A DNA stretch of 64,000 nucleotides from a virus: IMG/VR virus record IMGVR_UViG_3300024255_000017, positions 17,433 through 81,432 of that record. One strand, 5' to 3'. Shown here one piece after another: positions 1,532 through 61,600 of the stretch. The position numbers were made by a program, and so were the translations under genes. Every line of letters starts with the position of its first letter. Positions within the stretch are counted from its first letter, which is position 1. The notes under the pieces are model-generated. The model saw nothing but the letters and a program-made list of their open reading frames with translations. It was not told the DNA's origin and did not search any database.

Positions 1532-1974
1532 AGCTAAAAGCATTCACTAATATTTTATTAAGTATTAGAGATCTTTCAAATTCTTCTACTACTAAGGTTG
1601 GTTGTATGGCAATAAAGAAAGACTTTAGTAAAATAGCAAGCTTCGGATATAATGGCTCTTATAGTGGAGCTGAAACGAATAGTAATACTGGAACTGAAGA
1701 AGATTCTTTAACACCAGGAGAAAGTGGATTTATTCACGCTGAGGTAAATATGATTGCTAAGTTTCAAGAATACGATCCACAAAATTATATAATACTCTTA
1801 ACACTTTCTCCGTGTAAAATGTGCACCAAGATTCTGGTTAATGCCGGATTTAAGCATGTTTATTGGATGCAAAATTATCGTGATACTTCTCACCTTGAGA
1901 TTTTTAATGAATGTAATGTGACACACGGTAAAATTTTCAACCTATTAAATGACTACCGCATAATAAAGGACTGA
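1501..1974 (+). CDS. deoxycytidylate (dCMP) deaminase
   Basis: The product converts dCMP to dUMP, feeding dTTP synthesis during phage replication. The zinc-dependent deaminase signature is complete: HAE at residues 79-81 (zinc ligand His and catalytic Glu) and PCKMC at 104-108 (two zinc-binding Cys). The N-terminus (SNSSTTKVGCMAIKKD) has the usual dCMP-deaminase spacing to HAE. At 157 residues it is somewhat shorter than T4 Cd (about 190). It overlaps the HAD gene and closes this metabolic block: its TGA stop forms the first bases of a promoter-like motif serving the next gene. Confidence 0.9.
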   Translation: MDPKLQRLQIKLKAFTNILLSIRDLSNSSTTKVGCMAIKKDFSKIASFGYNGSYSGAETNSNTGTEEDSLTPGESGFIHAEVNMIAKFQEYDPQNYIILLTLSPCKMCTKILVNAGFKHVYWMQNYRDTSHLEIFNECNVTHGKIFNLLNDYRIIKD

Positions 1975-1999
1975 ATATATACTAAAAATAGCAAGTCCT
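1967..1999 (+). promoter_or_regulatory. late-promoter-like motif inside an inverted repeat
   Basis: The 20-mer tgaatatatactaaaaatag (1972-1991) is repeated exactly at 8991-9010. Flanking arms AGGACT (1967-1972) and AGTCCT (1994-1999) are complementary, and the right arm ends one base before the TTG start at 2001. The distance from the 20-mer to the start codon (29 bases) is the same as at the second copy. The promoter role is inferred from similarity to the T4 late TATAAATA box. Confidence 0.55.
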
Positions 2000-2000
2000 C

Positions 2001-2582
2001 TTGGTTGTAGAAGCACTAACATTTAAACTTTCCTTAGACTTTTTTGTTTACTTAAAAAAGTACAAGATAGCAGTGTCAAAAATCCGTATTGGGTTTTTTG
2101 ATGTTGCTGAAAATAAATCAACATACACTGATTTTAGTAGCATTGATGAAATGGAATTATTTTACCAGAGTAATTATGTACCATTTGATCCATGTTTTGT
2201 TGGAGACTTAGCATCTATACAGGTATTTATAGGTGAAAGCAGTCTATATGATTTTACTACAGAATACCGAGCGGAGAATATTACAAAGGTTTTTAAGCTT
2301 ACTCCTGGTTCATCATTTGATATACAAAGAAATAAGCAGAGAGAAATTTTAATTAATAGACAAGTTGGGTTTATAAACAGAGCAGTTGAAGATTATAGAA
2401 AATTCTGGAATGAAATTAATAGAATATATACAACAGGCATTTATTCTATATGCTATGCACAACCAGGATGGTCAGAAGGTACTTGGTATTTAGATCAACT
2501 AAGATTAGCATTTACAGAAAAAGATGATGTGGCGGAATTCCCATATGATGATGTAAATATTATTCCTGAACCACCTGAATAA
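2001..2582 (+). CDS. unknown protein upstream of collagen-like fibre
   Basis: I do not recognise this 193-residue protein. It has no signal peptide or membrane helix and ends in an acidic, Pro-containing tail (NIIPEPPE). The TTG start is supported by position: an in-frame TAG at 1989 limits extension, and the start lies exactly as far from the upstream 20-mer promoter motif as the ATG of the 9020 gene does from its identical copy. It sits 20 bases before the fibre gene and probably shares its transcript, which fits a fibre-attachment or chaperone role, but the sequence itself does not show this. Confidence 0.6.
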   Translation: MVVEALTFKLSLDFFVYLKKYKIAVSKIRIGFFDVAENKSTYTDFSSIDEMELFYQSNYVPFDPCFVGDLASIQVFIGESSLYDFTTEYRAENITKVFKLTPGSSFDIQRNKQREILINRQVGFINRAVEDYRKFWNEINRIYTTGIYSICYAQPGWSEGTWYLDQLRLAFTEKDDVAEFPYDDVNIIPEPPE

Positions 2583-2602
2583 ATAAAAAAAGAATAGGTT
2601 AA

Positions 2603-6781: not shown

Positions 6782-6837
6782 CATTTAATTAAACAATTTT
6801 CTTTTTCCAAGTATAATAATTATAAAATGATACAAGT

Positions 6838-7329
6838 ATGGAAAATACAGAAGAAGTAAACCTACAGTGGATAAAGGGAGATAAGTTCGGTTCAGTAGAA
6901 ACAGTTGAAAGTACTGAAGGTGAATGGACGATATTTAAAAACGGTGGTAGGATAGCAACAAATTTACTTAGCGAATTTTTAGAACCAATAGATGGTGAAC
7001 CTTTAGATTTTAATCCGCCTAACCCAGCATTAATACAAGCAGCCGAGGTATATAAAGAAAAGGTACCACCACAAAAGGCTATTACATCTCCAATAAGAAC
7101 ACTCTTTGATAAACAGAAAAAGAATGATAAAGTAAAACTGAATCTTTCATTTCCAATAGACGTTCCTAAAAAGGCTATATATGAAATTATTAGTTCTTCA
7201 TTTGATAGTGAAGAAGTAAATGATGAATTAGAAGTCTTTATTAAAAATCAAATATCCGAAGACTTAATTTTAAATAGTCTTTTTGATAGCATTAAAGAAT
7301 TAATTAAAACTAGATACGGTATTGACTAG
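6838..7329 (+). CDS. unknown 163-residue protein
   Basis: I do not recognise this gene. The N-terminal half (LQWIKGDKFGSVETVES ... WTIFKNGGRIATNLLSEFLEPI) looks like a small beta-rich domain. A Pro-rich linker around residues 58-80 leads to a charged, probably helical C-terminal half containing a PIDVPKKAIYEIISSSFD segment. It lacks signal peptide and membrane segments. A 56-base gap with a TTTTCTTTTT tract separates it from the fibre gene, so it may have its own transcription start. It is followed by a run of small, tightly packed genes. Confidence 0.65.
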   Translation: MENTEEVNLQWIKGDKFGSVETVESTEGEWTIFKNGGRIATNLLSEFLEPIDGEPLDFNPPNPALIQAAEVYKEKVPPQKAITSPIRTLFDKQKKNDKVKLNLSFPIDVPKKAIYEIISSSFDSEEVNDELEVFIKNQISEDLILNSLFDSIKELIKTRYGID

Positions 7330-7342
7330 GCAATTTAACTTA

Positions 7343-7351
7343 TAATATATA
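7343..7351 (+). promoter_or_regulatory. late-promoter-like TAATATATA motif
   Basis: The motif lies in the 36-base gap before the gene at 7366, 23 bases from its ATG. It matches the recurrent AATATATA element and resembles the T4 late promoter box. A promoter role is inferred. Confidence 0.4.
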
Positions 7352-7365
7352 ATAAAATCAATCAT

Positions 7366-9014: not shown

Positions 9015-9019
9015 TCTAT

Positions 9020-10807: not shown

Positions 10808-10821
10808 TATAATTATTAAAT

Positions 10822-11373: not shown

Positions 11374-11375
11374 AT

Positions 11376-16788: not shown

Positions 16789-16827
16789 TTTATCCTGGTT
16801 TGGAATATATAAACAAATCAGGATAAA
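16789..16827 (+). promoter_or_regulatory. promoter-like motif enclosed by a 9-bp inverted repeat
   Basis: Arms TTTATCCTG (16789-16797) and CAGGATAAA (16819-16827) are perfectly complementary and enclose GAATATATA (16803-16811). The right arm ends one base before the ATG at 16829. Read-through RNA could form the hairpin; RNA started from the enclosed motif could not. Confidence 0.65.
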
Positions 16828-16828: not shown

Positions 16829-18127
16829 ATGTATTCTAACGAACAACTTAATGCTATACATTCTTCAAAGATAGGTTTTGAATTTGAGTTTTTTTCAAAT
16901 GAAAATTTAGACCTTACTAAAGAAGGCTTAGCACAAACCTTAAACAAGGCAATTAGAGTAGAAGAAAAAGCTCATAGTGACTTTACACCTACTCAAGATA
17001 TCTTTAAATTAGAACCAGATAATTCCGGTGGTACTGGAATGATTGAACTGGTAACCGGGCCTCTGCCTTTTGTTGAAGCTAAGATAATTATGGCTAAAAC
17101 TTTAAAATGGATTAGAGAAAATGGAAAGACTAATGAAAGATGTTCAATCCATGTTAATATTGCATTTGATGGAAAAAAGCTAGGACCTATTGTTAATATG
17201 TCTAAATTAGATGTAGGTAAATTTGTACTTAACTTTGATGAAAACAAAGTATATGAAGCCTTTCCAAATAGAAGAGATTCTGTTTATGCAAAATCTATAA
17301 AGTTTATTGTACCTCTAAGTGGTATGACCCAACCATCACCAGAAAAAAATCTTTGGAAAAACTATATGTTTGTCAAAGAGAAGTATTATGGTATTAATTT
17401 TGAAAAGTTACAAAAGGGTTATATTGAATTTAGGTATCTTGGTGGTGCCGATTATGAAAAGAGGTATTCTACAATACTTTCAATGACCGAACATTTTATT
17501 ACTTCATTGTATGAAACTTTGGTTAATCCACAATACAATGAATCTGACTTAAAAGTTTTAGATAAGATTTTAGAAAAACATAAAACTGTTGTTGAATCTT
17601 ACAGAACCTATTCTTCATTTAAAGAAAAATTTCCGAAAGTTCATTTAATGATTGATCTAAAAACGTATGATCAAATTGTTGAAATGTATTACCCTAAAAT
17701 TAGAGAAAAGATTTTTGATTTAATTACTAGGGCTGATATGAATGAAGGATTAATTAATTATGATAGTGATACTGGAAGAATACAGATTAAAGATGCTAAG
17801 CTAATGAGATGTTTTGAAATAAGCGGTGTTGATATTGTTGATTCAGTTATTCAAGGAAATATAGTTAATTGTGATATCTTTGGATGTGACCTTAAGAATT
17901 CATCAGTATTTGAATCTAACTTATTTGGCGCGACTGTAGCAGAAGACTGTAAAATAGAAGAATCGTATGTTAGTAGAAATGTAATAGTCGAGAAAAGTTA
18001 TGTATTTGGAAAAAGAGGAGTATTCAGCGGAGAAATGGTTGGAGGTATTTTTAGACAAGGTAGAGCAACCCCTCTTGCAAGATTTGGTGATAATACTGAA
18101 GTAATAGAAATAGAAAAAATTAAGTAA
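16829..18127 (+). CDS. amidoligase (glutamine-synthetase-like fold) fused to beta-helix
   Basis: This 432-residue protein has an N-terminal amidoligase_2-type COOH-NH2 ligase domain of the glutamine-synthetase-like fold. Visible motifs are IGFEFEF (residues 15-21, metal/ATP-binding Glu pair), EPDNSGGTGMIELVTGPL, CSIHVNI and YIEFRYLGGADYEKR. From about 326 to 393 runs a pentapeptide-like array (GVDIVDSVIQGNIVNCDIFG and onward) predicted to be a short right-handed beta-helix. Such enzymes form amide or isopeptide bonds using ATP. Its place between S1-like and wedge genes suggests modification of a phage or host protein or a cell-wall peptide, but the substrate cannot be read from sequence. It is 4 bases from the next gene. 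Confidence 0.72.
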   Translation: MYSNEQLNAIHSSKIGFEFEFFSNENLDLTKEGLAQTLNKAIRVEEKAHSDFTPTQDIFKLEPDNSGGTGMIELVTGPLPFVEAKIIMAKTLKWIRENGKTNERCSIHVNIAFDGKKLGPIVNMSKLDVGKFVLNFDENKVYEAFPNRRDSVYAKSIKFIVPLSGMTQPSPEKNLWKNYMFVKEKYYGINFEKLQKGYIEFRYLGGADYEKRYSTILSMTEHFITSLYETLVNPQYNESDLKVLDKILEKHKTVVESYRTYSSFKEKFPKVHLMIDLKTYDQIVEMYYPKIREKIFDLITRADMNEGLINYDSDTGRIQIKDAKLMRCFEISGVDIVDSVIQGNIVNCDIFGCDLKNSSVFESNLFGATVAEDCKIEESYVSRNVIVEKSYVFGKRGVFSGEMVGGIFRQGRATPLARFGDNTEVIEIEKIK

Positions 18128-19027: not shown

Positions 19028-19054
19028 GAGAATATATAATAAAAGAATATTCTC
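19028..19054 (+). promoter_or_regulatory. promoter-like motif overlapping an 8-bp inverted repeat
   Basis: GAGAATAT (19028-19035) pairs with ATATTCTC (19047-19054). GAATATATA occupies 19030-19038 and the right arm ends one base before the ATG at 19056. The 26-base spacing from motif to start equals that before the genes at 16829, 31652 and 42878. Confidence 0.65.
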
Positions 19055-19055: not shown

Positions 19056-19421
19056 ATGATAAAAGAAATATACAGTAGAGACATAGATGCACCGAAGTAC
19101 AATGATGATGTAATCGAGGTGACAGATCAATTACAACAGCTTATTCTTAAGATTGAGAATTGTTTGTTTACAAGACAAGGTGATGTTTTAGGTTCTCCTA
19201 ACATGGGATGTAATTTAGATGATCTTGTCTTTTCTTTGGTATTAAACGAATCGGTTATTTCCCAAAGGATTAGTAACCAAATTCAGTCATATTGCTTAAA
19301 CAGTAGTAGTTCTGCTTTTGGGTTAGATGTAAGAGTACAATTTTACAGCACAGTAGATAGAAACGGTTGTTTAGTTGATATTTATATAAATGAAGAGAGA
19401 GTCATTGGGGCTTTATTTTAA
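19056..19421 (+). CDS. 25: baseplate wedge protein gp25
   Basis: This 121-residue protein matches the GPW/gp25 family in size (T4 gp25, 132 residues) and pattern: a helix with TDQLQQLILKIENCLFTRQG, the segment DVLGSPNMGCNLDDLVF, and a C-terminal beta pair (GLDVRVQFYS, LVDIYINEE). gp25 sits at the core of the wedge and nucleates sheath assembly in contractile systems. It is followed 14 bases later by the gp6 gene, the canonical 25-6 order. The usual acidic Glu of the family's early motif is replaced by Asp (TRQGD). Confidence 0.82.
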   Translation: MIKEIYSRDIDAPKYNDDVIEVTDQLQQLILKIENCLFTRQGDVLGSPNMGCNLDDLVFSLVLNESVISQRISNQIQSYCLNSSSSAFGLDVRVQFYSTVDRNGCLVDIYINEERVIGALF

Positions 19422-31597: not shown

Positions 31598-31601
31598 ACA
31601 T

Positions 31602-31651
31602 TTAATTTTTCACTAATCGTTTGGTGAATAAATAAAAAAAGTGAAAATTAA
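31602..31651 (+). promoter_or_regulatory. promoter-like GAATAAATA inside a long imperfect inverted repeat
   Basis: The left arm TTAATTTTTCAC (31602-31613) pairs with GTGAAAATTAA (31641-31651) with one bulged T, giving 11 pairs. GAATAAATA occupies 31626-31634. The right arm abuts the ATG at 31652. Confidence 0.62.
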
Positions 31652-34600
31652 ATGGCCGAAAAATTATTTGATAAAGCATCCTATAGTATAGCTAGAACTA
31701 ATCCTAAGTTAACAGGTAATGTTAAACTTGTTAGTGATGGTAGTAATTTGTATCTAGAATCATTTAGTGCTAATACTGAACTGTCATCTTCTACATTTAA
31801 AGCATTTAAAATAAGTGGTAAAGATACTTATGATAGAGATGTTTGGAAATTCTTTCAAGGTGGAAAGTTCCCAGCACAATTAGCATATGAGGTATTCCAA
31901 GAATACCAAGATGTATCAGTATTATCCCAATATCAAAACCAGTATGAAATGTTTTATTCAGCTGGTACTAGATCAGTCTCGTCCAATTCATATTCTCAAG
32001 AGTTAGGAATGCTCGCGCCTTTATGGTTAAACGAACAAATTCCTGAAAAATTTGTAATATTTAGAATAGACAATCCTGCTGCTGTTAATAATATAATGGC
32101 AACAGTACAAAACACCAATTCTGATTTAGCACAAACATCAGCTGCATTTACTAAAAATGTTTTGGAGAATTGTACTGCCGTTAAAACTTTTGATTTAACA
32201 ACAAATAGTTTACTAGGATCTTATATTAGAAACTATAGATCACAAGAATCCTTTCCTGCATCACCGCTAAATATTTCATGGAGAAAGGATGAAGCAATGC
32301 AATGGGCAGGAATTAATTACAGTAAAGGTGGATTCACATCGGCTGGTAGTTTTTCATATGATGGGATAGTCACAGAAGATGCTACTATTATACAAAATGA
32401 ATTCTTTTTTACTGAAGGGTTTGAAAGAAATAATGTTTTATTAGCTAATCTAATTAACATGGAATTTTTATTTACTGATGAAACTGCTTCTGATTATTCG
32501 GTAAACAGATACTTTGGTTTATATGTAAATGAAGTAGAGGAAGGTCGTTTTGATTTATCAGGAGAAGGGTTTTATAAAAATATTGAAAAAACACAATTAC
32601 CTAAAATAACCACCATCACTGAAGTATCGGAACAATTAAATACACCGTTTGAAATTTCTAACAGTCAAGGTGTTTTACTTTATATTGATCCAGCTAAAAC
32701 AGAAACTATTACAGGTGTACCAACTCCTAGTAGAGTAAATGAAGTTGAGTCAATCTTTTATGTTAAAGATAAAGAAGAAAATTTTCATACTGTTAAGAAA
32801 GGATCTAAATGGGGTACTAATCAAATAAGAATTTTTGATACGGCTGTTGATGTATCAAAATTTGCTGGTTTTAAAAGCCCTGATACTTTTGCAGATGCAA
32901 AAATTATTAATAGAAAAGGTAAAGCTACATGTTCTTTTAAAATTGCAAATGAATTATTAAACGGGTTAAGTATTACGTTTTATGATGGAATAGATTTAAT
33001 AGGAGAAGTTGCAGCTACTTCAATAGAGGCACCTGTACCAGGATCCAATAAACAGCAATTCTTTAATCCTAATGGAACTAATCAAGAAATAGCTAAAGCA
33101 ATAACTAATGCAATAAATCAAGGCATATCACCAGAGAAAAGATTTTTTGTAGCTTCTTATAATGATGATACCGTTTATGTTCAGTCAAGATTTGGTGGGA
33201 GCAGATTTAATAGACTTAACTTTAAGATTAATTATTCAGCATACCCTTTACAGATAGATAATTTAGTAACCTATCCACTTGCTACAATAGTAGATGATAA
33301 TAAAAACTTTGTTGGTGGTAATGATGTAAATTCATCTTTATTAAGAGTTGCTAATGGCGACCAAGATAGATTTGTATTAGGTAATTGGATTCAGTCAAAA
33401 AATGGTTACGCTGAAATAGGTAACTGGGTTCCTTACTTAGAAAATCCAGTAGAAGACAACACAGGAACTGTTACAAGCTATAAAGAAATCGATGAGTATG
33501 TTATTATAACTTTAAATGATAATCAGATACAAGTTACTAATAGTGGACAAGTTGCACTGTACTCTGACTATAAACCTTCGTTTGGTAGATTTTCAATATT
33601 TCCTATGAAGGATTTTGATTATGACTTCTTTAGTACTATGTATAGTCAAATGGGTGAATTAGATTATGAGTATGATCAATATAACGTAGGCAGCGGCGGT
33701 GTATATTACAATATTAGTGCTAATCCTAATGTTAGAGATTTTTATGATTCTGGTGGATTTTTTAAATTAGTGGGGTTATTAAGAGAGGCAGACCCGGACA
33801 AAGATTTTGATTCAGTCATTTCTTCAGAGTATGACAGATTAGAAGAAAACTTTTTAAGGCAGCAATCAGTAGCATCTAGAGTTATTCCATATATTAATAA
33901 ATGGTCTTGGGTAAACGAAGGTAAGAATGTTAGAAACCTTCCATATAGTTTAAATGTTAATGAAGCATTTAGCCAAAATAATTTTTCACCTTCTAAATAT
34001 ACAACAGGACAAAATGCAGAAGGGTTTACTCATGAATGGTATTACTTATGTGAATTTCCAGATTACTTTAATAATTCAGCAGCAATAAAAAGTTCATGGA
34101 GTTATATTGATAAGGCACCTGTTGATACTATAGAAACAAATCCTTTAACTGGTGCGGTATACACACCAGGTACTTTTCAAAAGGTTGATAGAGATTATTT
34201 TAATGATTATTTTATAGTAGATAAATTTACAACCGGTGGTGTTGTTAATTTAATTGACAGACAATTAAGATATGGTAGATTTAGCGGTGGTGATGAAAAG
34301 AATTTTGCAGAATCATTTTTGCGCGGTGTTAGGATTATTGCAAAAACTAAAGCGGATGTTTTAGCTAAACCTAATTTTAATGCAAGGTCACAAAAATATG
34401 TTAGTGACGGTAGATTTAATGATTATAGATTTTCAGTAATGTTAATTCCTAATGCACCAGATAAACCTGAAACTCAGGTGAAGTTTGTAAAAAATGATAA
34501 ATGGAAAACTGTTGTTATGATGGTATTCTTAGCATTAGAAAATGACTGTATAAATGGTATAGGTGACCAGAGTATTGACCGAACAACATTGTATTCATAT

Positions 34601-36256
34601 GAAAGTCATTTTGTAGGAAGTCCTGTAATAGGTGAATCATGTAAACCGTTTATAAATCCACTAGGGGATTATGAATATTTAGATGGCCCTCTACAAGGAG
34701 CAATTAATTTTAGTGCATCTGGTTGGAATGGAGCAGCTGATGCATTCTTAATACAGGGTACTATGGATTCTAATGGAAATTTAACTAGATTTTTACGTGA
34801 TGTTTCTATAGGTTCTAGTGGTAACTTTAATTCAATAGAAATGGTGATAGGTTCAGATGTCTATGAGATTAACGATATTGTTAAAGTTATAAGTGATGAT
34901 AGATTATTTGCTAAAACTATATTAAAGAATGGTAGCAGTTTTGTACCTGGTGGATTATCACCATCTATAAATGATGCGAAGAGTGCCGATTATAAGGTAA
35001 TCGGTGGTGGCTTTAATACATATTCATCCAGATTAAATGATACTGGTTTTGCAACATTATTTAGATTTATTAATGAAGGTGCACCTGGTATTATTTATGA
35101 AACTATTGACGAGGATGGAAATAGAGTGCTATCACCTGATGGTTCTATTGCTGAAACCTTCTCTATAGAACTTAGAGCACAAGAAGATATTTTAAAATCA
35201 GTTTACATAGGGAGGTTACCAGATCCTGCTAAACCGACTAAGTTTAATCTTACCGATGTTATAGGCTATGATTTATCACTTCAGACAAAACCTAGAATAA
35301 CACCAATTGGAAGACATGCTGGAACATATCAACCTACTACCAAGAACTTATTTTATTTCAGAGATCCTTATATAGACCTTTTAGTTATAACTGGTGATGA
35401 TGCAGTGTATAAAGAAAAGGTAAAAGATTTATGTAGGTATTCAAATACTCAGTTTAATTCTAGTGATACTCAAAATTTTGGTCAATTAAGAAATCTGTTT
35501 TATCATAAAGTAAACGAAGAAGATCCATCCACTATATTAGAGCTTTCAACAGAGGATGCATTCTTAAGTCTATATCCACTCATAAATGAAATTGGTATAG
35601 CAAAAAGAGACTTCTATATATTTTCTTCTAACTGGGAACCTTCTTATTTTAGAAAGAGTATAGATAAATCTGAAGTTGAATCCATCATAGGCACACGATC
35701 CATGACAGAGAAAAAATCCTTCCTAGGTTCTAAATATTTAAAGGTTCCACATGAAATTAAACTAGAAACATTTTTACATGAGCCTGTTGCAGTTAAAGCT
35801 GCGATAAAACAACCTAGCTTAATAAAAGGTACATTTATGACCAGGGAGAATGACACTTCTGTATTATTCTATATGTTTATACAAAAAAGATTAATTCAAT
35901 TTTTATTCGAACCTATTAAGGAACAGTTTAAAAAATACATTAAGCCTGAATTTGGTTTTGGTGATATTGATACATTAGATGATGATGTTGAGAGATACAT
36001 AACTCAAAATATTTTACATCTATATAAGTTAGATAGTATTGACTTTTATGTTAAAAGTACCAGAGTTGATGCACCGTTGGATTATTCTACTGCTCAGTTA
36101 AATAATGCTGATAAAGTAGAAAATGGTTTAACTGTTAATACTTCAATAGGATCAAAAATATTAAATACAAATCCATTTGATCTTAGCCTAATATATAACA
36201 AAAGAAAGGGTTTTACTGAATCATTTGGATTTAGCATTACTATAGTTAAAAAATAA
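31652..36256 (+). CDS. very large tail/baseplate structural protein
   Basis: At 1534 residues this is the longest complete gene in the window, and I do not recognise it. It is soluble, rich in Asn, Asp, Phe and Tyr, with beta-strand-like repeats throughout and no collagen tract, signal peptide or coiled coil. The first 120 residues include a segment FFQGGKFPAQLAYEVFQEYQ followed by SQYQNQYEMFYSAGTRS. A late helical stretch around 1420-1480 (FYMFIQKRLIQFLFEPIKEQ) may pack against the baseplate. It has its own hairpin-enclosed promoter-like motif and is followed 7 bases later by a fibre gene. Confidence 0.58.
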   Translation: MAEKLFDKASYSIARTNPKLTGNVKLVSDGSNLYLESFSANTELSSSTFKAFKISGKDTYDRDVWKFFQGGKFPAQLAYEVFQEYQDVSVLSQYQNQYEMFYSAGTRSVSSNSYSQELGMLAPLWLNEQIPEKFVIFRIDNPAAVNNIMATVQNTNSDLAQTSAAFTKNVLENCTAVKTFDLTTNSLLGSYIRNYRSQESFPASPLNISWRKDEAMQWAGINYSKGGFTSAGSFSYDGIVTEDATIIQNEFFFTEGFERNNVLLANLINMEFLFTDETASDYSVNRYFGLYVNEVEEGRFDLSGEGFYKNIEKTQLPKITTITEVSEQLNTPFEISNSQGVLLYIDPAKTETITGVPTPSRVNEVESIFYVKDKEENFHTVKKGSKWGTNQIRIFDTAVDVSKFAGFKSPDTFADAKIINRKGKATCSFKIANELLNGLSITFYDGIDLIGEVAATSIEAPVPGSNKQQFFNPNGTNQEIAKAITNAINQGISPEKRFFVASYNDDTVYVQSRFGGSRFNRLNFKINYSAYPLQIDNLVTYPLATIVDDNKNFVGGNDVNSSLLRVANGDQDRFVLGNWIQSKNGYAEIGNWVPYLENPVEDNTGTVTSYKEIDEYVIITLNDNQIQVTNSGQVALYSDYKPSFGRFSIFPMKDFDYDFFSTMYSQMGELDYEYDQYNVGSGGVYYNISANPNVRDFYDSGGFFKLVGLLREADPDKDFDSVISSEYDRLEENFLRQQSVASRVIPYINKWSWVNEGKNVRNLPYSLNVNEAFSQNNFSPSKYTTGQNAEGFTHEWYYLCEFPDYFNNSAAIKSSWSYIDKAPVDTIETNPLTGAVYTPGTFQKVDRDYFNDYFIVDKFTTGGVVNLIDRQLRYGRFSGGDEKNFAESFLRGVRIIAKTKADVLAKPNFNARSQKYVSDGRFNDYRFSVMLIPNAPDKPETQVKFVKNDKWKTVVMMVFLALENDCINGIGDQSIDRTTLYSYESHFVGSPVIGESCKPFINPLGDYEYLDGPLQGAINFSASGWNGAADAFLIQGTMDSNGNLTRFLRDVSIGSSGNFNSIEMVIGSDVYEINDIVKVISDDRLFAKTILKNGSSFVPGGLSPSINDAKSADYKVIGGGFNTYSSRLNDTGFATLFRFINEGAPGIIYETIDEDGNRVLSPDGSIAETFSIELRAQEDILKSVYIGRLPDPAKPTKFNLTDVIGYDLSLQTKPRITPIGRHAGTYQPTTKNLFYFRDPYIDLLVITGDDAVYKEKVKDLCRYSNTQFNSSDTQNFGQLRNLFYHKVNEEDPSTILELSTEDAFLSLYPLINEIGIAKRDFYIFSSNWEPSYFRKSIDKSEVESIIGTRSMTEKKSFLGSKYLKVPHEIKLETFLHEPVAVKAAIKQPSLIKGTFMTRENDTSVLFYMFIQKRLIQFLFEPIKEQFKKYIKPEFGFGDIDTLDDDVERYITQNILHLYKLDSIDFYVKSTRVDAPLDYSTAQLNNADKVENGLTVNTSIGSKILNTNPFDLSLIYNKRKGFTESFGFSITIVKK

Positions 36257-38834: not shown

Positions 38835-38863
38835 TTAGAAGATTAATATTTAAATAAATAAAA

Positions 38864-39106
38864 ATGACAAAAAAGGAAAAAAAGGAATTAACTAGTTTTG
38901 TAGATAGATATAAACAAATAGAAACTTCTATTGATCTAATGCAAAAAAGTATTTTAAGTTTAGCTGATAAAAGAGATAAACTTTTTGATGAATTAGATAC
39001 CATGAAAAGTCAAGAAAAAACTTTTATGGAAAAGCTTATTAAAAAATATGGAGAAAGTAATGTTACTCCTTATAAGTTAATGAAAATTTACGAGGAAGGT
39101 ATATGA
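38864..39106 (+). CDS. small coiled-coil protein
   Basis: This 80-residue, Lys/Glu-rich protein is almost wholly helical with a heptad pattern (YKQIETSIDLMQKSILSLAD, then KRDKLFDELDTMKSQEKTFM). It has no membrane segment. Its stop overlaps the start of the membrane-anchored protein gene in an ATGA junction, so the two are probably made together and may interact. I do not recognise the family. Confidence 0.65.
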   Translation: MTKKEKKELTSFVDRYKQIETSIDLMQKSILSLADKRDKLFDELDTMKSQEKTFMEKLIKKYGESNVTPYKLMKIYEEGI

Positions 39107-39873
39107 TAATTTTAAAAAACATAATAGCGATAATCACTGATCCTAAAAATACAAGAATGTTTTTATTAGGTGGTATTGTAGTGTTGTGTTTTTTATTGTT
39201 TAGACAGTGCGAACAAACTAATATAGCAAAGAGTGAAGCTACTAAGATTAGTAATAATTGGAAAGCTTCGTTAGATACAATTGAAAACTATATTGACAAA
39301 AATGGAAATGCTGCCGCTGAAATAAGAGCTCTTAATTTAACATTAGAAGAAATTGAAGATGAGCTAGAGTTTGAGAAAGATAAACCGCCGTTGACTATTA
39401 TTAAAACTGAAACGGTAATAAAGGAAGTTATTGTAGAGGTACCGGTAAATGTTATTGATACTATATTAGGTAATTTTAATTCAGCATTAACAGTTTCCGA
39501 TTCTGCTACCTGGGGTAAAAGTTTTAGAGATATTGGAGTTTTTGTTCCTTATGAAATTGATGGTACTTTAATAAATTTTGGTAATGCTACTATTGATCTA
39601 AAACAAAATATATTTTTATCTGCCTCATTAACAAGAGACAATAAAACAAAAGAATTATTTGTAAATCTTTTAACTGATTATCCTGGTACTACTTTTAATA
39701 GTGCAGAAGGTATATTAATTGACCAAAGGAGTAGCGCGTTTAAAAGCTTACAATATGAAAACAGAAAAACATTAGGACTAGGATTACAACTAGGTGTCGG
39801 TTTCAGCGGTAACGGAGTTGCACCTTATGTTGGTATAGGTTTAAACTATACCCCTAAGTTTTTACAATGGTAA
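39103..39873 (+). CDS. membrane-anchored envelope protein, possible spanin-like
   Basis: This 256-residue protein has one N-terminal transmembrane helix at about residues 18-36 (MFLLGGIVVLCFLLFRQC) followed by a helical coiled-coil region (45-90), a Val-rich linker (IIKTETVIKEVIVEVPVNVI), and a C-terminal beta region with outer-membrane-like strands (LGLGLQLGVGFSGNGVAPYV, ending YTPKFLQW). The topology, an inner-membrane anchor with a periplasmic coiled coil, would fit an inner-membrane spanin in lysis. The Cys after the helix is not in a lipobox. I saw no holin or endolysin nearby, so another envelope role is possible. Confidence 0.6.
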   Translation: MIILKNIIAIITDPKNTRMFLLGGIVVLCFLLFRQCEQTNIAKSEATKISNNWKASLDTIENYIDKNGNAAAEIRALNLTLEEIEDELEFEKDKPPLTIIKTETVIKEVIVEVPVNVIDTILGNFNSALTVSDSATWGKSFRDIGVFVPYEIDGTLINFGNATIDLKQNIFLSASLTRDNKTKELFVNLLTDYPGTTFNSAEGILIDQRSSAFKSLQYENRKTLGLGLQLGVGFSGNGVAPYVGIGLNYTPKFLQW

Positions 39874-39885
39874 ATAAATAAAATA

Positions 39886-41265
39886 ATGGAATCATCTAAA
39901 TTTTTACAATTATCAGAAGGAATATTATTAGAGTATATTTACACTAGTCAATCTGAACCAACTGAACTTAACACTGCTGACTATCCGATAGACATAATGC
40001 GAGACGGTCATACCGGTGGTAGCTATCTATTTAATACAAGTGATGTTTCGGCTGAAATGGGTAACTATACAGATATCTCTGCTGCTGCTATTAATGTAAA
40101 TAAAACTCAGTACGCATATTTAGATACTGATATAGGAGTACCTTATAATGATTTTGATCCATTATTGACTAACACGGTAGACCTCCTACAGACGTTCTCC
40201 CCTCAGCTAAATATAGCATATGATAAAATAAGAGTACATTTTATCTCAGGCTTTTCATTTACAGGATTTGATGGTATTATATTTGAAACCTTAGTACCTC
40301 GTAGGGATGGTGTATTATTAAACCTATCTTCAATAAACTTTTTAAAGACTGATACTCCGGTATTTAATCCAGATCCAGTTTTAATAAATGATAATCTTTA
40401 TGCCAGTTTTATTGAATGGAGAGTACCATCTCTTTACTTCATGAATAACAGCTTTAATGCTGCTGATTCTAATGGCCTAGGATTTAAGTTAACTGAAGGT
40501 AAAGGATTTTTAAGTACTCCTACAATTACATTTAAGGCTACAGGTATTTATGAAACTATAGTTGAAAATAGTTATAGCTATTATAATGTAGAAGAAATAA
40601 ATTCAGTTACATTACCAAGTAGGGATATTTATGATAATCTTTATGCTAGTGTTACAGAGGCGGAAGGTGGTGATTATTTTGAATTAACAGGTTTGGTAAC
40701 AGGTTCAACATTTTCTAATTTTATAAGTCAGCTAAACGCCACGTCAGGTGGAGCAAACAATATAGTATTTCATGAAATTAATGTGAGTGAGCAAATAGAT
40801 ACTTCATTTGTTAAGACTAGCACACAGGTATTTACACAGACTAACAGTTTTGATAATCCTATTCTATTTAGACCAATTATTTTAAATAGTGCTATTGCCG
40901 CTTCTTTTACAATTAATTATATGCTAAGAATTTATAACCGAGCTGATAATACTCAGATAATTAAGCAAGCTAAATTAACTTCATTTGATGTAAAGAAATA
41001 CGGAAGGCGATTAATGAAAATAAATTTAGGAGTAGTTCCAACTGTGGCTAATGTATACAATCAAATTGCACCGAATGATGGAAACAATATTATTGTAAAC
41101 AATGGTGGAAATGGAGGAGCTGGACAAACAACAGAAAAAATAGTAGAACAACTGGTAGTGAAAACTAAGTATGTAACTTCATTTAGAGATAAATTACATG
41201 TGAAGGCGTCAATATCTCCAGCTAAAATACAAACAATAACAGAAACCGATGGATCAACAGAATAA
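39886..41265 (+). CDS. tail/baseplate structural protein, unassigned
   Basis: This 459-residue beta-rich soluble protein has repeated strand patterns (YDKIRVHFISGFSFTGFDGI, then ATGIYETIVENSYSYYNVEE). A C-terminal Asn/Gly linker (NNIIVNNGGNGGAGQTTE) is followed by a basic strand region (TKYVTSFRDKLHVKASISPA). It overlaps the next gene by 17 bases. The position after the fibre genes and before the tail-tube-like gene suggests a tail component, but I cannot match it to a T4 protein. Confidence 0.55.
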   Translation: MESSKFLQLSEGILLEYIYTSQSEPTELNTADYPIDIMRDGHTGGSYLFNTSDVSAEMGNYTDISAAAINVNKTQYAYLDTDIGVPYNDFDPLLTNTVDLLQTFSPQLNIAYDKIRVHFISGFSFTGFDGIIFETLVPRRDGVLLNLSSINFLKTDTPVFNPDPVLINDNLYASFIEWRVPSLYFMNNSFNAADSNGLGFKLTEGKGFLSTPTITFKATGIYETIVENSYSYYNVEEINSVTLPSRDIYDNLYASVTEAEGGDYFELTGLVTGSTFSNFISQLNATSGGANNIVFHEINVSEQIDTSFVKTSTQVFTQTNSFDNPILFRPIILNSAIAASFTINYMLRIYNRADNTQIIKQAKLTSFDVKKYGRRLMKINLGVVPTVANVYNQIAPNDGNNIIVNNGGNGGAGQTTEKIVEQLVVKTKYVTSFRDKLHVKASISPAKIQTITETDGSTE

Positions 41266-42877: not shown

Positions 42878-43234
42878 ATGAAAACATTTAAAGATTACCT
42901 TACTGAAAGTCATGATGATTCTATAGATATACAAAATCTAATAAATGAATCTTATGATTTAACAGAAGAACAAGAAACTGCAATAGATAATGCAGTTGAT
43001 AGAATTATGGAAGAACATAATAACGGAAAAGATTTAGAAGTTATTATGGAAGAAATAATTAATGAAGGTATATTAGGATCTGTTTTAGGTGGTCTTACTG
43101 GTTTTGCTTTAGGTAAATCTGTAGGAAAGGCTATCGCAAAGGTACTAGGTATTCAAAAAGGAGCCTTGTATGATTTATTAACCAGTCGATTAATTGGTGC
43201 TGCATTAGGTGCAGTATTAGGTAAAAGACTTTAA
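42878..43234 (+). CDS. small glycine-zipper protein with capsid-targeting-like N-terminus
   Basis: This 118-residue protein begins MKTFKDYLTES, closely resembling the T4 capsid targeting sequence MKTYQEFIAE, which directs internal proteins into the prohead and is removed by the gp21 protease after Glu. A charged helical region follows (LTEEQETAIDNAVDRIMEEH), then a Gly-zipper hydrophobic region (GILGSVLGGLTGFALGKSVG and RLIGAALGAVLGKRL) able to enter membranes. I infer an internal head protein delivered with the DNA, perhaps acting at the host membrane. The parallel is by pattern only. Confidence 0.62.
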   Translation: MKTFKDYLTESHDDSIDIQNLINESYDLTEEQETAIDNAVDRIMEEHNNGKDLEVIMEEIINEGILGSVLGGLTGFALGKSVGKAIAKVLGIQKGALYDLLTSRLIGAALGAVLGKRL

Positions 43235-43244
43235 TCCAATATAA

Positions 43245-47151: not shown

Positions 47152-48653
47152 TGGAACTATCTCTGTCTGAAAATAAAAAGTTTTTAGTAATTGATTCATG
47201 TACCGAATTGGAATATGAACAGTTAAAATCTAGTCTTACTAAGAAAATAGAAGGGTGGCGGTTTCACCCTCTGGTAAAGAAAAAGGTTTGGGATGGTAAC
47301 ATTTCATTTATTAAAAGAAACAAAATACCAGCAGGATTATGGAAAGAAGTAATTGACATTTGCAAACAATATGATTATCAATTTACTTTAAATGGTATAA
47401 CTGATATTTTTGATACTTCAATAGATGAAGAAACTTTTAAGAAGTGGGCAGATGAATTTTTTGCAAAGTCTGAAATTAAACCGAGAGACTATCAAATAGA
47501 CGCAGCAATAAAGATTTTAAAGTATAGGAGATGTTTAGCTGAATTGGCAACTTCTGCAGGTAAAACTTTAATTTCATTTATGGTAGTTGCTTATATGATG
47601 GAACAATTAGGTAAAAAGAAAATCTTAATGATTGTACCTAATGTAAGTTTAGTAGTTCAAGCAAGCGGAGATTTTGAAGAATATAATAAAGGTAGAGTAC
47701 CAATTAAAATTCAACAGATTTATGCCGGTGTGAAATTAAGAAAGAGCTCTAATGTAGTTATAGGTACTTATCAATCATTAACTAAAAAGGATGAGGAATA
47801 CTTTAGTCAATTTGATGCTGTCTTTGTAGATGAAACTCATAAAGCAAAAGCAAATTCAATCCAGAAGATAATGGATAAATGCTGGCACTGCGACTATAGA
47901 TTTGGTTTAAGTGGTACTATTCCTAAAAGAGGAACTGTAAATAGACTAAGTTTAATGTCAGCGATGGGACCTTTGGTAACTCAAGTAAAGGCTGCTCATT
48001 TACAGGAAGAAGGGCATATTGCAAAATGTAAAGTATTACAGATACACATGGAATATGCAACCGATGCTCAAAAAGAAGCATTCTCGTCTTTATCTAAAAA
48101 TCCGTATGATAGGCAAAAGTTATTTAGTTTAGAACAAAACTTTATTAATGAAAGTGAAAAGAGGCTAGATTTTGTTTGCCAAGTAATTAAAAAGTCTACA
48201 TCCAATTCACTAGTGTTATTTCATAAAATAGCTTATGGTGAAAAAATATACAAAAAACTTAGGACAATAACAGATAAGAAGGTTTACTATGTTGATGGTT
48301 CTGTTAAGTCTGATTTTAGAGAAGAATTTAAAAAGAGAATGGAAAAGAACGATGATGTTATTATTGTAGCATCATACGGAACATTCTCAACAGGTATTTC
48401 AATTAAAAACATTCATAACATTTTCTTTACCGAATCATTTAAATCAGAAGTGATCATTAGACAATCGATAGGTAGAGGTTTAAGAAAGCATGAAGCTAAA
48501 GATGTTGTAAAAATATATGACTTCATTGATGATTTTAGATATAAAGTGGATGATCACGATTGGGTAAATTATATTTATAGACATGGTATGGAAAGAAGAA
48601 AAATCTATAAAGAAGAAAAGTTCCCATTCGAAGTACAGAATGTTAGATACTAA
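47151..48653 (+). CDS. uvsW: RNA-DNA / recombination helicase, UvsW-like
   Basis: This 500-residue superfamily-2 helicase matches T4 UvsW (503) in length. Motif I is TSAGKT (Lys138), motif II VDETH (227-230), motif III GLSGT, and motif VI IGRGLRK near residue 445. The N-terminal 100 residues (GWRFHPLVKKKVWDGNISFI) match the small DNA-binding domain typical of UvsW. UvsW unwinds R-loops and branched DNA, switching replication from origin- to recombination-dependent mode. It follows the UvsY-like gene in a TAATG overlap. Confidence 0.88.
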   Translation: MELSLSENKKFLVIDSCTELEYEQLKSSLTKKIEGWRFHPLVKKKVWDGNISFIKRNKIPAGLWKEVIDICKQYDYQFTLNGITDIFDTSIDEETFKKWADEFFAKSEIKPRDYQIDAAIKILKYRRCLAELATSAGKTLISFMVVAYMMEQLGKKKILMIVPNVSLVVQASGDFEEYNKGRVPIKIQQIYAGVKLRKSSNVVIGTYQSLTKKDEEYFSQFDAVFVDETHKAKANSIQKIMDKCWHCDYRFGLSGTIPKRGTVNRLSLMSAMGPLVTQVKAAHLQEEGHIAKCKVLQIHMEYATDAQKEAFSSLSKNPYDRQKLFSLEQNFINESEKRLDFVCQVIKKSTSNSLVLFHKIAYGEKIYKKLRTITDKKVYYVDGSVKSDFREEFKKRMEKNDDVIIVASYGTFSTGISIKNIHNIFFTESFKSEVIIRQSIGRGLRKHEAKDVVKIYDFIDDFRYKVDDHDWVNYIYRHGMERRKIYKEEKFPFEVQNVRY

Positions 48654-48660
48654 TATAGAA

Positions 48661-48710
48661 TATCTTTCTCATGAGAGATGGATATATAAAAAAAGAATCA
48701 AAAAAAGATA
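48661..48710 (+). promoter_or_regulatory. promoter-like GGATATATA within a 7-bp inverted repeat
   Basis: TATCTTT (48661-48667) pairs with AAAGATA (48704-48710); GGATATATA lies at 48680-48688 and a separate palindrome TCTCATGAGA at 48667-48676. The ATG follows at 48718. This is the only gap between uvsW and the acidic-protein gene. Confidence 0.5.
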
Positions 48711-48717
48711 AAATATA

Positions 48718-51627: not shown

Positions 51628-51630
51628 GAT

Positions 51631-54776: not shown

Positions 54777-54792
54777 AATTATTAAAGGATCT

Positions 54793-54801
54793 GAATAAAT
54801 A
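54793..54801 (+). promoter_or_regulatory. late-promoter-like GAATAAATA motif
   Basis: The motif is 21 bases before the ATG at 54814 in the short gap after the 1021-residue gene. Confidence 0.45.
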
Positions 54802-54813
54802 AAAAAAGTGTAC

Positions 54814-56184: not shown

Positions 56185-56411
56185 TGAATAATTTAATTAA
56201 TGAAAATGAAGCAGGTACTGTTGGCCTAAATCCTAATATGAATGTACAGGGCATGGGAGCAGTTGAGCTTCCAGGCGATCCTGGTTCAGCAAATTCTTTT
56301 GCTACTCAAAAGGTTGGTAGTGGTGATGATCCTGAAGGAAAAAAGAAAAAGAAAAAGAAGATGTTACTTTTATCATTTGATAAGTACATGGAGCTTTTAA
56401 AATCAAAATAA
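56184..56411 (+). CDS. small unknown protein with lysine run
   Basis: This 75-residue protein starts with GTG in a one-base overlap with the previous stop (TAGTG). The N-terminal half is Gly/Asn/Pro-rich (NPNMNVQGMGAVELPGDPGS), then a run of seven Lys (GKKKKKKKM) and a short helix LSFDKYMELLKSK. A short leader NNLINE ends in a possible head-protease site (I-x-E). A DNA-neutralising internal head peptide would fit, but I do not recognise the family. Confidence 0.5.
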   Translation: MNNLINENEAGTVGLNPNMNVQGMGAVELPGDPGSANSFATQKVGSGDDPEGKKKKKKKMLLLSFDKYMELLKSK

Positions 56412-56421
56412 ATAAAGTATA

Positions 56422-58644
56422 ATGGCAGTAATCCCAAAATATACACTTAAGTCCTTGTTTGAGGCAGGTGACTTAATGACACAGGATAGCTTTGATGATT
56501 TTATTGATTCGGCATATAACCCAACACTTGTAGCTGGTGCAGATATACAATTAACAACAGTGTCTACCCCTAGCGGAGATACAATAACTATATCTTCAAC
56601 TGGTAGCGGTGGCGCACCGATTATAGAAGGTCCAGGTATAGATATTACAACAGTTGGTTCTGACAAGAAAATCTCAATTGATTTAAATACAGGTCAAACT
56701 AATCTAATATTTGATGGTAATGATAAGCTAACTTTTGCAGGTGTACATATAAAAGATGAAGGGGCTGCCGTAGGTACTTATCCAACAATTAATTTTGTAG
56801 GTGTTGATGTATTAGCTGAAGATAGTGGAACACCAGGACAAGTAAATGTTTATATACCAACACCAACATTTGCATCACATTATAATACAACAGACGGTAC
56901 AACTAATGGTTTGGTAACTGAAAATACTCCAAGAAATACTGTTAGGATTAGTACTCCTACTTTAGAAGGTACACCTTTCTTTACAGGTGGTTGGGCTGGA
57001 ACAAACCAATATGCATATAATGGCACAGGGGCTGGTCAAAATGTACTTACTACTACCGGGTTAGTAACTGGTCTTAGTCCATCAGGTAGTGGTGATGCAA
57101 AAATACAGATCATTGTAACAGACGGTGGCGGAAACGAAATTAGTAATAATACCTCTCCTGTGTTAGATGGAAACCTAAATTTATTTACACCTGACCTTCA
57201 TTGTACCATCCAGGTAACTGGTTATGCACAAGACACTTCTAAGTGGAAAGGAAAAATCATGGTTAGTGTAGATATGCCGAAGGTATTTCAGGATGCAGGA
57301 TTAAGTGGTGGTCGTTATTTTATAAAAACTATTATGACAACTGATACAGTAACGGATGGAGGAAATGCATATTCTTATATACAAAACGATGTATTTTGGG
57401 ATAAGAATGATTTAGGAGGTTATCCATCCAGTCCACAAATAAATGGTAATGCATCAATTATAGAAAACACTTCATCTATAATATCAAAACACTTAAGCGG
57501 GGTTGAATATTATGTAAGCGGTTCTCAATTTGAAGTTGATGTTACCGATATAGATTATTTAAATAGTAATACTCAAGGAAGATCATCGAGCGCAGTATGG
57601 AATTTCCAAGTGTTAGGTAGTGATTATGGTTTAAGTCCTATCCAAGAAGAGGCATGGAATCCTTCAGCAGGAATGACATTCCCTGGTTGGGATAATAAAT
57701 ATGATACATTAGATATAGATTTTGATTATGATAATTGGCCTATCACTGCATCTAACTATAGATTTAGAAATGATGATGCTACTGTGGCTGCTAGGGTATG
57801 GGATCCATGGGTAAGTAGTTTACCATCAGGAACCAATTCACCAGGTGCAAAAATATTAATTGATACTTATGGAGTTACAAGTGATAATTTAACTGAAAGA
57901 TTTGATGATGAGGCCGAGAGATTAACAACAGTAGGTGGAGCTTATACATCATTTGACTCCGTTACATCATTAGTACCTTCAGGTTTAACTAATCAAACTA
58001 CAAGTGCGTTATCACCAGGTCCTTTTTGTCAAGGAGTAGTAGTAGGAGGTACATTAATTAGACCAGATAAATTCTTTAGTGATAATGGTAATTCACCTGA
58101 CACTAGTGATTTATTAGGAAACTTAGTATTATATAAACCTAATGTAGGTGGAACTAATCCTGATTACAGTGGTGTAGGTTATCAAGTACCTGCAACATTT
58201 CATAGATTATTTGAAGCTAGCTCATCAAATCTAGGAAGACCTATTTCATCATTTGAATTAACATTTAGTGGATCCTTTGTTGGTGGAACTGTTTATGATT
58301 CTTTGGTAAGTAATGATTTAAGAATATATGTTAGAAAGAAAGCAGCTGCATCTGGTTCAAATATAGGAATTACTGCAATACCTCATTCATTACATAATTC
58401 AAATCCATTTAGTGGAAGTTATCAAGATCCACCTGCATCAGTTGATGATAACACACAATCGCAATGTAGAACAACAACGTCTGCAAGCAGTGTAATATCT
58501 GGGTCATTTGGAACTTCTCCTGCTTTAGATGGATTTTATATAGAAGTACAAATACATAATCCACTAATTAGAATAGGTGGAATATCTGCAAAAATAATTT
58601 TTAGTTCAGGTTCACCAACTACCGAGAGCGGTGGTAATGTATAA
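56422..58644 (+). CDS. receptor-binding fibre protein, collagen-free paralogue
   Basis: This 740-residue protein is paralogous to the next gene over its C-terminal 550 residues: GGWAGTNQYAYNG versus GGWSGSNTLR; VWDPWVSS ... AKILIDTYG versus LLDPWSDT ... NKILIDVAH; TFHRLFEA versus IFHRLFND. The N-terminal module (VIPKYTLKSLFEAGDLMTQD) differs and there is no collagen tract. It starts 10 bases after the small Lys-rich gene. It is likely a fibre carrying the same distal domain on a different shaft. Confidence 0.65.
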   Translation: MAVIPKYTLKSLFEAGDLMTQDSFDDFIDSAYNPTLVAGADIQLTTVSTPSGDTITISSTGSGGAPIIEGPGIDITTVGSDKKISIDLNTGQTNLIFDGNDKLTFAGVHIKDEGAAVGTYPTINFVGVDVLAEDSGTPGQVNVYIPTPTFASHYNTTDGTTNGLVTENTPRNTVRISTPTLEGTPFFTGGWAGTNQYAYNGTGAGQNVLTTTGLVTGLSPSGSGDAKIQIIVTDGGGNEISNNTSPVLDGNLNLFTPDLHCTIQVTGYAQDTSKWKGKIMVSVDMPKVFQDAGLSGGRYFIKTIMTTDTVTDGGNAYSYIQNDVFWDKNDLGGYPSSPQINGNASIIENTSSIISKHLSGVEYYVSGSQFEVDVTDIDYLNSNTQGRSSSAVWNFQVLGSDYGLSPIQEEAWNPSAGMTFPGWDNKYDTLDIDFDYDNWPITASNYRFRNDDATVAARVWDPWVSSLPSGTNSPGAKILIDTYGVTSDNLTERFDDEAERLTTVGGAYTSFDSVTSLVPSGLTNQTTSALSPGPFCQGVVVGGTLIRPDKFFSDNGNSPDTSDLLGNLVLYKPNVGGTNPDYSGVGYQVPATFHRLFEASSSNLGRPISSFELTFSGSFVGGTVYDSLVSNDLRIYVRKKAAASGSNIGITAIPHSLHNSNPFSGSYQDPPASVDDNTQSQCRTTTSASSVISGSFGTSPALDGFYIEVQIHNPLIRIGGISAKIIFSSGSPTTESGGNV

Positions 58645-58654
58645 AACTTATGGT

Positions 58655-58663
58655 GAATAAATA
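58655..58663 (+). promoter_or_regulatory. late-promoter-like GAATAAATA motif
   Basis: The motif lies 32 bases before the ATG at 58687. Arms ACTTAT (58646-58651) and ATAAAGT (58677-58683) flank it with one bulge, a weaker case of the hairpin arrangement. Confidence 0.45.
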
Positions 58664-58686
58664 TAAAAAGAAAACAATAAAGTAAT

Positions 58687-61600
58687 ATGGCAGGATTTTC
58701 AATTAATGAAGTAAATAAATTAACCTTTAAAGTACAGGCTGGTGGGGTTATAGATGCTTCAGCCGGAAACAGATGGTACGAATCTTCATTAGCATTCAGT
58801 CCTAATATAAAGGATCCTAGTAGAATACTTACTGATTATAATTTAATACCACCAGCTAATCTGCCAGTAGATGCAGTTAATGCTGCATCAGCAGATCCTG
58901 TAAATATCCAAAATGCATCTGGTCCAGGAGGTTCACAACTTGACCAAGTATATGCTTTTAATAATTCTACTTGGATTTTATATAATACTCCTGGTGATAC
59001 TACATCAGGGTTTAAAAATAATTGGATTTTACCGGCCTCAGTACCACAAGCGGATGGAACACCATCAAATGGATACGGAATTAAGTTATGGTCAGGTAAT
59101 CCTGCGTTAGGTGGTACTGAAATACCTTTATCAGCAGGCCAGGCAAATAATCCTGGTTATGTAGGTTGGGTATTTAATTATGATCAAGGTTTACTTTTTA
59201 TCTCTGATGATTTACAAACTGATATAACAAATAATACAGGAGGTGCATATCCAAACGGTTTTGATTTATACATAACTGGTTTTAGATACATTGGTGCAAC
59301 TGGTGGAGGTGGCGGTGGAGCCCAAGGTACTCAAGGTACTCAAGGTACTGGTGGTGCAGGATCTCAAGGAACTCAAGGTTTACAAGGTACATTAGGAACT
59401 CAAGGTGTACAGGGTTTACAAGGTTCAGGTAGTCAAGGTACATTAGGAACCCAAGGTTTACAAGGAACATTAGGAACTCAAGGAGTTCAAGGTTTACAAG
59501 GTTCAGGATCTCAAGGTACTCAAGGTTTACAAGGAACCGATGGTTTACAAGGAACACAAGGTTTACAAGGTTCAGGATCTCAAGGTACTCAAGGTTTACA
59601 AGGAACCGATGGTTTACAAGGAACACAAGGTTTACAAGGAACTGATGGTTTACAAGGTACTCAAGGTTTACAAGGAACCGATGGTTTACAAGGAACACAG
59701 GGTTTACAAGGTTCAGGATCTCAAGGTACTCAAGGTTTACAAGGAACCGATGGTTTACAAGGCGTTCAAGGTTTACAAGGAACCGATGGTTTACAAGGTG
59801 TTCAAGGTTTACAAGGAACCGATGGTTTACAAGGAGCTCAAGGTTTACAAGGAACTGATGGTTTACAAGGAACTCAAGGTTTACAAGGTGTTCAAGGTTT
59901 ACAAGGTGTTCAAGGTATACTTGGTACAGGTACTCAAGGTACACAAGGTATTAGCGGAGCCGGTGGAAATATAACAGTTGCAAATTCTGATACCACTGAC
60001 GGTTCATCTCCAACATTTTTAGGCGGAACTTATACTAAATTTAATTTTGTGGATCGCCTAGATGATAATAGAGTATATGCACAAGAAGATCCAGGAGACT
60101 CTTCACAAGTCAATGTATTTTTTCCAGCGCCTGATGCTCCAATATATCCTAATTATTTAAATAGGAATGTTGCTACAGGTTCACCAACGCCATCTAACGC
60201 AACTATAGCAGAAAACAATAACCCAGTAAACAGAAGAATAGCAATACCTAATGCCAATCTACAATTTGGACTTCCAGGTGGTAACTATGAAGATGGTGGT
60301 TGGTCAGGTTCTAATACTCTTAGGGCTGTTTATAAACAAGATACACAAGGAACAATTTCACTTGGATCTGGTAATACTGCATCACCTGTAAAAGTAAGAG
60401 GATTCGGTGGAGTTGCAGGATCTGGTGATGGTTCTATTACAATCGATGTTTTAGACGGAGATGGCGTTACTATATTAGAAACGTTTACAGAAAGTAATAT
60501 AATTGCCTCCGGACAATATAAATCTACCAGTGAAAATGTAATATTAACTATAAGCGATTATAATACTTTAGTTAATCCATATAATTCACAAGACGTTTAT
60601 GAAGCATCTGTTAAGGTAGATGTTATTATGGGTGTACCTGGTAGTGGAGCCGGTCTCGGTACAGGTATATTTAATAATACTTTAAATGCTAGTCTTGATC
60701 CAAGAGACGGTGGTAAATTTACAATTAAGATATCTATGACGGCTGATTCATCAGGTTTATTAGTAGATCCACCTTCACCGGATCTTCCATTAGATTATTC
60801 ATATACTGTTTTTGCTGATGCTAACCCAAACACGCCAAGTTTAGCCAGTGCCGCTTCTACGTTCCCTGCTGTTGATTCTGCTAATTTCAGATATATCAGT
60901 GGTATAAAATATTATACTAACGGTACTACTCTATCTTCTTCTGTTGATGATTTACTTACATTAAATGGAAATTCTATAATTGTTAATAATATAAGAACCA
61001 GAATATTTAATTGGTCTGCTAATACATTATCAGTTAATGATACTTCATATAGTTTATCTAATGGGACAATTACTTTAACCCAACCTGGTGTTGTTAATGA
61101 TTGGAATCAAACTTTAATAGATTATGATAATAATGCTTCAACTTTTACAATAGCTAATTCAAATCATAGGTATAGATCACAAGGAGGTAATTCTCAATTT
61201 AGACTTTTGGATCCGTGGTCAGATACTGGCTGGGGTGCAGATTCTACAAAAAACAAAATACTTATTGATGTAGCTCATAGTAATTCAACTGATTTAATTG
61301 AATATTTTAATGTAGAAAACAAAAGGCTATTTAGAGATATTACAGGAAATACATATTCAGCATGGAATAGTCAATCTTCATTATTGGATGTTGCCCAACC
61401 GCCAAATAGTAGAACTTCAGCAATTGTTGAGAATCTATGTCTTGTCGGTGGTGAAGGTATTGCTGCATCAGATTTTTATGCTGATAATGATAGCACAGGT
61501 AATCTACCTACGACTGGTACAATTATTTCTGGAGACTTAAGTAATTACATACCAGCAGGTAATCCTAATTATAATACTATGGGGGATACACCAATATTCC

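Follow-up and report, generated by a model that had tools for sequence, protein, structure and literature searches.

The analysed locus and its late-promoter-like motifs

The stretch of DNA analysed here, referred to throughout as the window, is 64 kb long (positions 17433-81432 of an 81,432-base IMG/VR virus record), and its main genes are co-directional on the + strand. The gene order starts with DNA ligase, PNK and dCMP deaminase (36-1974), continues with a tail/baseplate run and then with RuvC, ssDNA-binding protein, primase, UvsY and helicase, and passes into another run. LR756500 (462 kb) is a named relative, and the Prevotella Lak phages, Tenacibaculum PTm1 and phage PAU are more distant ones; as these include phages of Bacteroidota, the relatedness of the sequences points to Bacteroidota as the probable host of this large-phage family. 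An SD-like 4-mer precedes 5 of the 47 starts against an expected 2.3, so that a host without Shine-Dalgarno dependence, as assumed in an earlier note on this DNA, is plausible in view of both observations.

The motif [AG]ATA[AT]ATA is found 13-38 nt upstream of 19 of the 47 starts in the window, while the same search on the reverse strand returns 0 starts and dinucleotide shuffles place it before 2.6 +/- 1.6 starts (maximum 8), which bears out the proposal that T4-late-like motifs precede gene starts. AATAWATA is likewise strand-biased, with 27 occurrences versus 5. We regard this TATAAATA-like box (AATAWATA-type) as a putative late promoter comparable to the T4-type, gp55-dependent class, on the grounds of motif, strand bias and position; a protein of two distant relatives (211-aa open frame) has a sigma region 4 match, the contig studied here being incomplete. 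Four motifs of the form AATAAATA lie just 11-15 nt before a start (38853-38866, 39873-39888, 54794-54808 and 56407-56422), a spacing that would put a T4-like start site at, or 1-2 bases from, the start codon; the late mRNAs may be leaderless here, or the A-rich sequence may be an initiation context instead of a promoter.

Four hairpins around the motif

Before genes 2001, 16829, 19056 and 31652 the motif lies between, or overlaps, the arms of an inverted repeat (Table 1), an arrangement shared by most orthologs. The motif-to-start spacing is 25 nt at 16829, 19056 and 31652 and 27 nt at 2001. The earlier note had listed nine such sites, six of them with 6-11 pairs and right arms 1-7 bases from the start, and three as weaker cases; these four hold, with 6, 14, 8 and 13 pairs, respectively, and right arms that end 0-1 nt 5' of the start.

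Table 1. Parts of the four supported hairpins and the genes that follow them (window coordinates).
Feature	Position	Strand	Remarks
Left arm AGGACT, gene 2001	1967..1972	+	overlaps stop codon of dCMP-deaminase-like gene
Putative late-promoter motif AATATATA, gene 2001	1974..1981	+	
Right arm AGTCCT, gene 2001	1994..1999	+	one base 5' of TTG start
Gene 2001, 193 aa	2001..2582	+	no function assigned
Left arm TTTATCCTGGTTTG, gene 16829	16789..16802	+	
Putative late-promoter motif AATATATA, gene 16829	16804..16811	+	in hairpin loop
Right arm CAAATCAGGATAAA, gene 16829	16814..16827	+	14 pairs with left arm, one G-U
Gene 16829, amidoligase-like enzyme with C-terminal beta-solenoid (predicted)	16829..18127	+	AlphaFold2 pLDDT 89; Foldseek
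Left arm GAGAATAT, gene 19056	19028..19035	+	overlaps first motif bases
Putative late-promoter motif AATATATA, gene 19056	19031..19038	+	
Right arm ATATTCTC, gene 19056	19047..19054	+	one base 5' of ATG
Gene 19056, probable gp25-like baseplate wedge protein	19056..19421	+	weak: phrog_43 E=0.0014
Left arm TTTAATTTTTCACT, gene 31652	31601..31614	+	one bulged base
Putative late-promoter motif AATAAATA, gene 31652	31627..31634	+	
Right arm AGTGAAAATTAAA, gene 31652	31640..31652	+	extends into A of ATG
Gene 31652, 1534-aa protein	31652..36256	+	no function assigned; N-terminal part matches phrog_31887

Gene 2001 is the first after the ligase, PNK and dCMP deaminase genes and is followed by the tail-fibre-like gene 2603. 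The modelled product of gene 16829, which has no Pfam match above cut-off, resembles an amidoligase, its Foldseek matches being phage amidoligases and glutamine synthetases; across many phages the protein shows 91-98% identity, against just 50-84% for the 12898-encoded protein of these phages, and its gene sits inside the baseplate gene run. Gene 19056 probably encodes a gp25-like wedge protein on the strength of weak matches, that to PF04965 (E=0.045) falling below cut-off.

Compared with dinucleotide shuffles, the hairpin folds at 16829 and 31652 reach z -4.8 and -3.4, and that at 19056 z -2.4, while the stem score at 2001 has p 0.025. Few starts exceed chance in this comparison, these four among them, and four of the five other listed sites do not. 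Two starts outside the earlier claim were also observed: 24862 has a low fold energy (z -2.4), and 43245 (RuvC-like), which has no late motif, follows a stable fold at 43185-43244 (z -3.2), with a strong stem upstream of its LR756500 ortholog too.

When left and right arms were shuffled among the 16 promoter genes of the window, own arm pairs averaged -7.1 versus -5.4 kcal/mol for permuted ones (p=0.005, 16 promoters). The effect is gone without 2001, 16829, 19056 and 31652 (p=0.53) and already loses significance when 16829 and 31652 alone are dropped (p=0.24). The window-internal signal is thus carried by these last two, and the case for 2001 and 19056 depends on the ortholog tests.

Compensatory change in related phages

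To compare orthologs we took related loci from IMG/VR and, in 21 ortholog groups, set the duplex energy of each phage's own flanks against that of flanks exchanged between phages. Own flanks pair better in the groups of 16829 (-13.7 versus -8.5), 31652 (-12.0 versus -8.7) and 19056 (-7.9 versus -5.7), each with p<0.0002, and in that of 2001 (-8.7 versus -6.6, p=0.0004, 10 orthologs). None of the other 17 groups falls below p=0.019; 56422 (p=0.019) and 58687 (p=0.023) come close, as borderline cases before correction for 21 tests, and the remaining groups show no signal. The swap does not wholly remove relatedness, the other groups being flat under the same conditions. When exchanges are restricted to divergent partners, these four groups stay significant (p 0.0067 or less), own flanks being better in 15/16, 14/15, 18/22 and 9/10 cases for 16829, 31652, 19056 and 2001, respectively; no other group is significant among divergent partners, the lowest value being 0.068 (58687). 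Arm covariation, proposed in the earlier note as a check, is therefore present in four groups, with nothing clear in the other 17.

Indeed, relatives often have arms of entirely unrelated sequence that still complement each other, while the pairing, the promoter position and the place of the right arm at the start are kept. Ortholog arm pairs include GCCCGGTTTAT/ATAAACCGGGC (L089), CATACCAGGTTTAA/TTAAACCTGGTATG (L084), ATTCTGCCTGAA/TTCAGGTAGAAT (L087/L088), TTATCTTT/AAAGATAA (L129), CGCTTT/AAAGCG (L151) and TTTCTCAACCAT/ATGGTTGAGAAA (L158), as well as CAGAATA/TATTCTG in the gp25 group (L090). Both arms have changed together many times, which argues that the arrangement is real and the stem kept by compensatory change. 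Furthermore, the predicted stem takes in the start codon in L084, L087, L158, L321, L225 and others: in L084 and L087 a perfect or near-perfect stem passes through the AUG, and the L158 right arm consists of the start codon and 9 nt, i.e. the next three codons.

The motif-bearing 16829 orthologs L028, L076 and L338 have weak pairing only. In keeping with a hairpin tied to the promoter, 19 different regions upstream of distant amidoligase orthologs that lack the motif form no stem (best p 0.15; these orthologs are distant, their starts are less certain, and the control rows L361 and L371 were left out because their start offset was wrong). LR756500, PAU, Lak and PTm1 have no clear equivalent hairpin at these genes, with perhaps one exception before the 19436 ortholog in LR756500.

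Related arrangements also occur at other genes. On the minus strand of L312 (LR756500) a GCTCCAT/ATGGAGC stem with the motif between its arms (position 32229 of the reverse complement) and the start codon in its right arm precedes a 376-aa ORF; judged by this layout, it is the same design in a distant phage. Near position 4399 of L223, in the ortholog of gene 6838, an 11-pair perfect repeat (CACTTTAGTTT/AAACTAAAGTG) has AATAAATA and an ATG in its loop. A long palindrome around AATAAATA on the minus strand of L310 (Lak phage; position 34382 of the reverse complement), with a T run after it, is more likely to be a terminator than a hairpin of the promoter kind.

Sites that do not hold

The remaining five of the nine listed sites fall away. 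At 9020 (stem p 0.22, swap p 0.28) the 6-7 pairs in the window have as their left arm the coding end of the upstream gene (..DKYLNSLG stop), which fixes that arm, and the right arm drifts across relatives without compensation. Sites 12898 and 42878 show no covariation (swap p 0.93 and 0.51, respectively), and 58687 is not confirmed, its swap p of 0.023 being uncorrected for 21 groups and rising to 0.07 against divergent partners; 9020, 12898, 42878 and 58687 are also not distinct from dinucleotide shuffles. A promoter hairpin at 48718 is not confirmed by the swap (p 0.61) despite z -2.6 versus shuffles, and its left arm ATATCTTT persists in relatives that have lost or never had the right one. 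Between the helicase and the next gene (48640-48717) relatives also conserve an element, AGATTCTAATATAGAATATCTTTT, which looks like a small terminator-like stem; ATATCTTT looks like part of such a stem.

A proposed translational switch at selected late genes

We therefore favour, with a probability of roughly three in four, a reading in which a T4-type late promoter lies within an inverted repeat at 2001, 16829, 19056 and 31652, so that read-through mRNA is closed and the gene's own late mRNA open. Motif and arm positions can be read directly from the DNA, as can the covariation at all four genes and, for 16829 and 31652, pairing far beyond what chance would give. That the promoter is active, where its RNA begins, that translation is blocked and what purpose this serves are inferred. 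In read-through mRNA both arms would be present, and the hairpin would pair the start region (in many relatives the start codon itself), thereby blocking 30S entry. By analogy with T4, the late mRNA would begin about 6 nt past the motif, downstream of the left arm, and would thus keep the right arm only, in an open leader of about 12-14 nt, so that the gene would be translated mainly from its own late transcript. In the model, the probability that bases near the start are unpaired is 0.24 in the long RNA and 0.43 in the short one at 16829, and 0.21 and 0.41, respectively, at 31652. The change is small for 2001 and 19056, whose stems in the window are short, and at 2001, where the left arm overlaps the stop codon of the preceding gene, ribosomes that reach this codon could disrupt the pairing of the arm.

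The promoter-in-hairpin logic put forward in the earlier note thus fits the comparative data at four genes, where it matches the T4 cases, and not elsewhere among its listed sites. Its notion of a general switch does not survive: only about 4 of 16 testable late promoters, about a quarter, have a hairpin, and the control is selective. The 2001 hairpin stands at the early-to-late gene boundary, after the nucleotide-metabolism genes, and its purpose may be late timing, as in the T4 logic. Those at 16829, 19056 and 31652 are surrounded by structural genes of the late type, so that insulation from neighbouring late transcripts would serve as purpose equally well as timing. That the main role throughout is to shield certain late genes from the late transcripts of their neighbours rather than to delay them, by hiding the start codon in a little-SD host, is a tentative extension that we consider possible, if rather doubtful; were it true, an individual virion or enzyme gene would be translated only from its own promoter.

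Alternatively, the hairpin could serve the upstream mRNA as a 3'-end stabiliser, an RNase processing site or a weak terminator. The left arm begins 2-4 nt past the upstream stop codon at 16829 and 31652, and a terminator-like stem does exist elsewhere in the window, before 48718; the right arms, however, have no U-run after them, such a role would not need a right arm held at or within the start codon, and distant orthologs without the promoter motif are also without the hairpin, all of which makes this explanation improbable. Slightly less probable still is that the palindrome acts as DNA and controls late transcription, either by binding a dimer as an operator or by forming a cruciform around the promoter. 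The arms are symmetric about the promoter, and in a sense/antisense energy test (G-U versus A-C) the control groups departed from expectation both ways, so that it does not tell action as RNA from action as DNA. Arm sequences are nevertheless wholly different between genes and between phages, which argues against a common operator, and loop length and motif distance vary while the right arm keeps its place at the start codon, which in some cases it includes; this placement fits a role in translation initiation better than one at the end of a transcript or as a DNA operator. Finally, it is very improbable that AT-rich intergenic DNA produced all nine repeats by chance. Chance holds for 9020, 12898, 42878, 48718 and probably 58687 and suffices for the window once the four genes are removed, but the shuffles refute it at 16829 and 31652, as covariation does at 19056, with 2001 the weakest of the four.

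If the promoter-in-hairpin reading is correct, a control known from a few T4 genes would extend to unrelated genes in another phage lineage, where compensatory changes have preserved it time and again and where what must be hidden is the start codon and not an SD site. The ortholog arm swap offers a sequence-only way to find such switches in uncultured phages, and the four genes are concrete targets for RNA work.

Comparison with known systems

The T4 hairpins at e, soc, 49 and I-TevI to which the earlier note referred are indeed reviewed cases (PMC3014915, PMC2988022), and the same pipeline run as a positive control on 44 T4 promoter-like units ranked I-TevII first and e third. At T4 gene e (lysozyme) late promoters lie between the arms and the right arm covers the translation start, so that read-through RNA is closed and late RNA open (PMC3014915), the arrangement proposed here. 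T4 e, however, is carried on early read-through transcripts with its SD site hidden, whereas the present genes encode amidoligase-like, gp25-like, large and 193-aa proteins, three of them in a late-type run, with little SD use. T4 I-TevI, I-TevII, I-TevIII and segB and Aeh1 mobE likewise have RBS-sequestering hairpins with the promoter so placed that late transcripts lose the left arm (PMC2988022); these are homing endonuclease genes in early or middle transcription units, unlike the four genes, none of which was recognised as a homing endonuclease in family searches. In T4 gene 25 a leader stem aids initiation by compensating an extended SD-AUG spacing (PMC3014915), and 19056, as a likely gp25 relative, also has a leader stem, but the T4 stem is no promoter-in-hairpin switch. 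The best reading is therefore of a trick already known from phage T4, here in a different phage lineage and at different genes.
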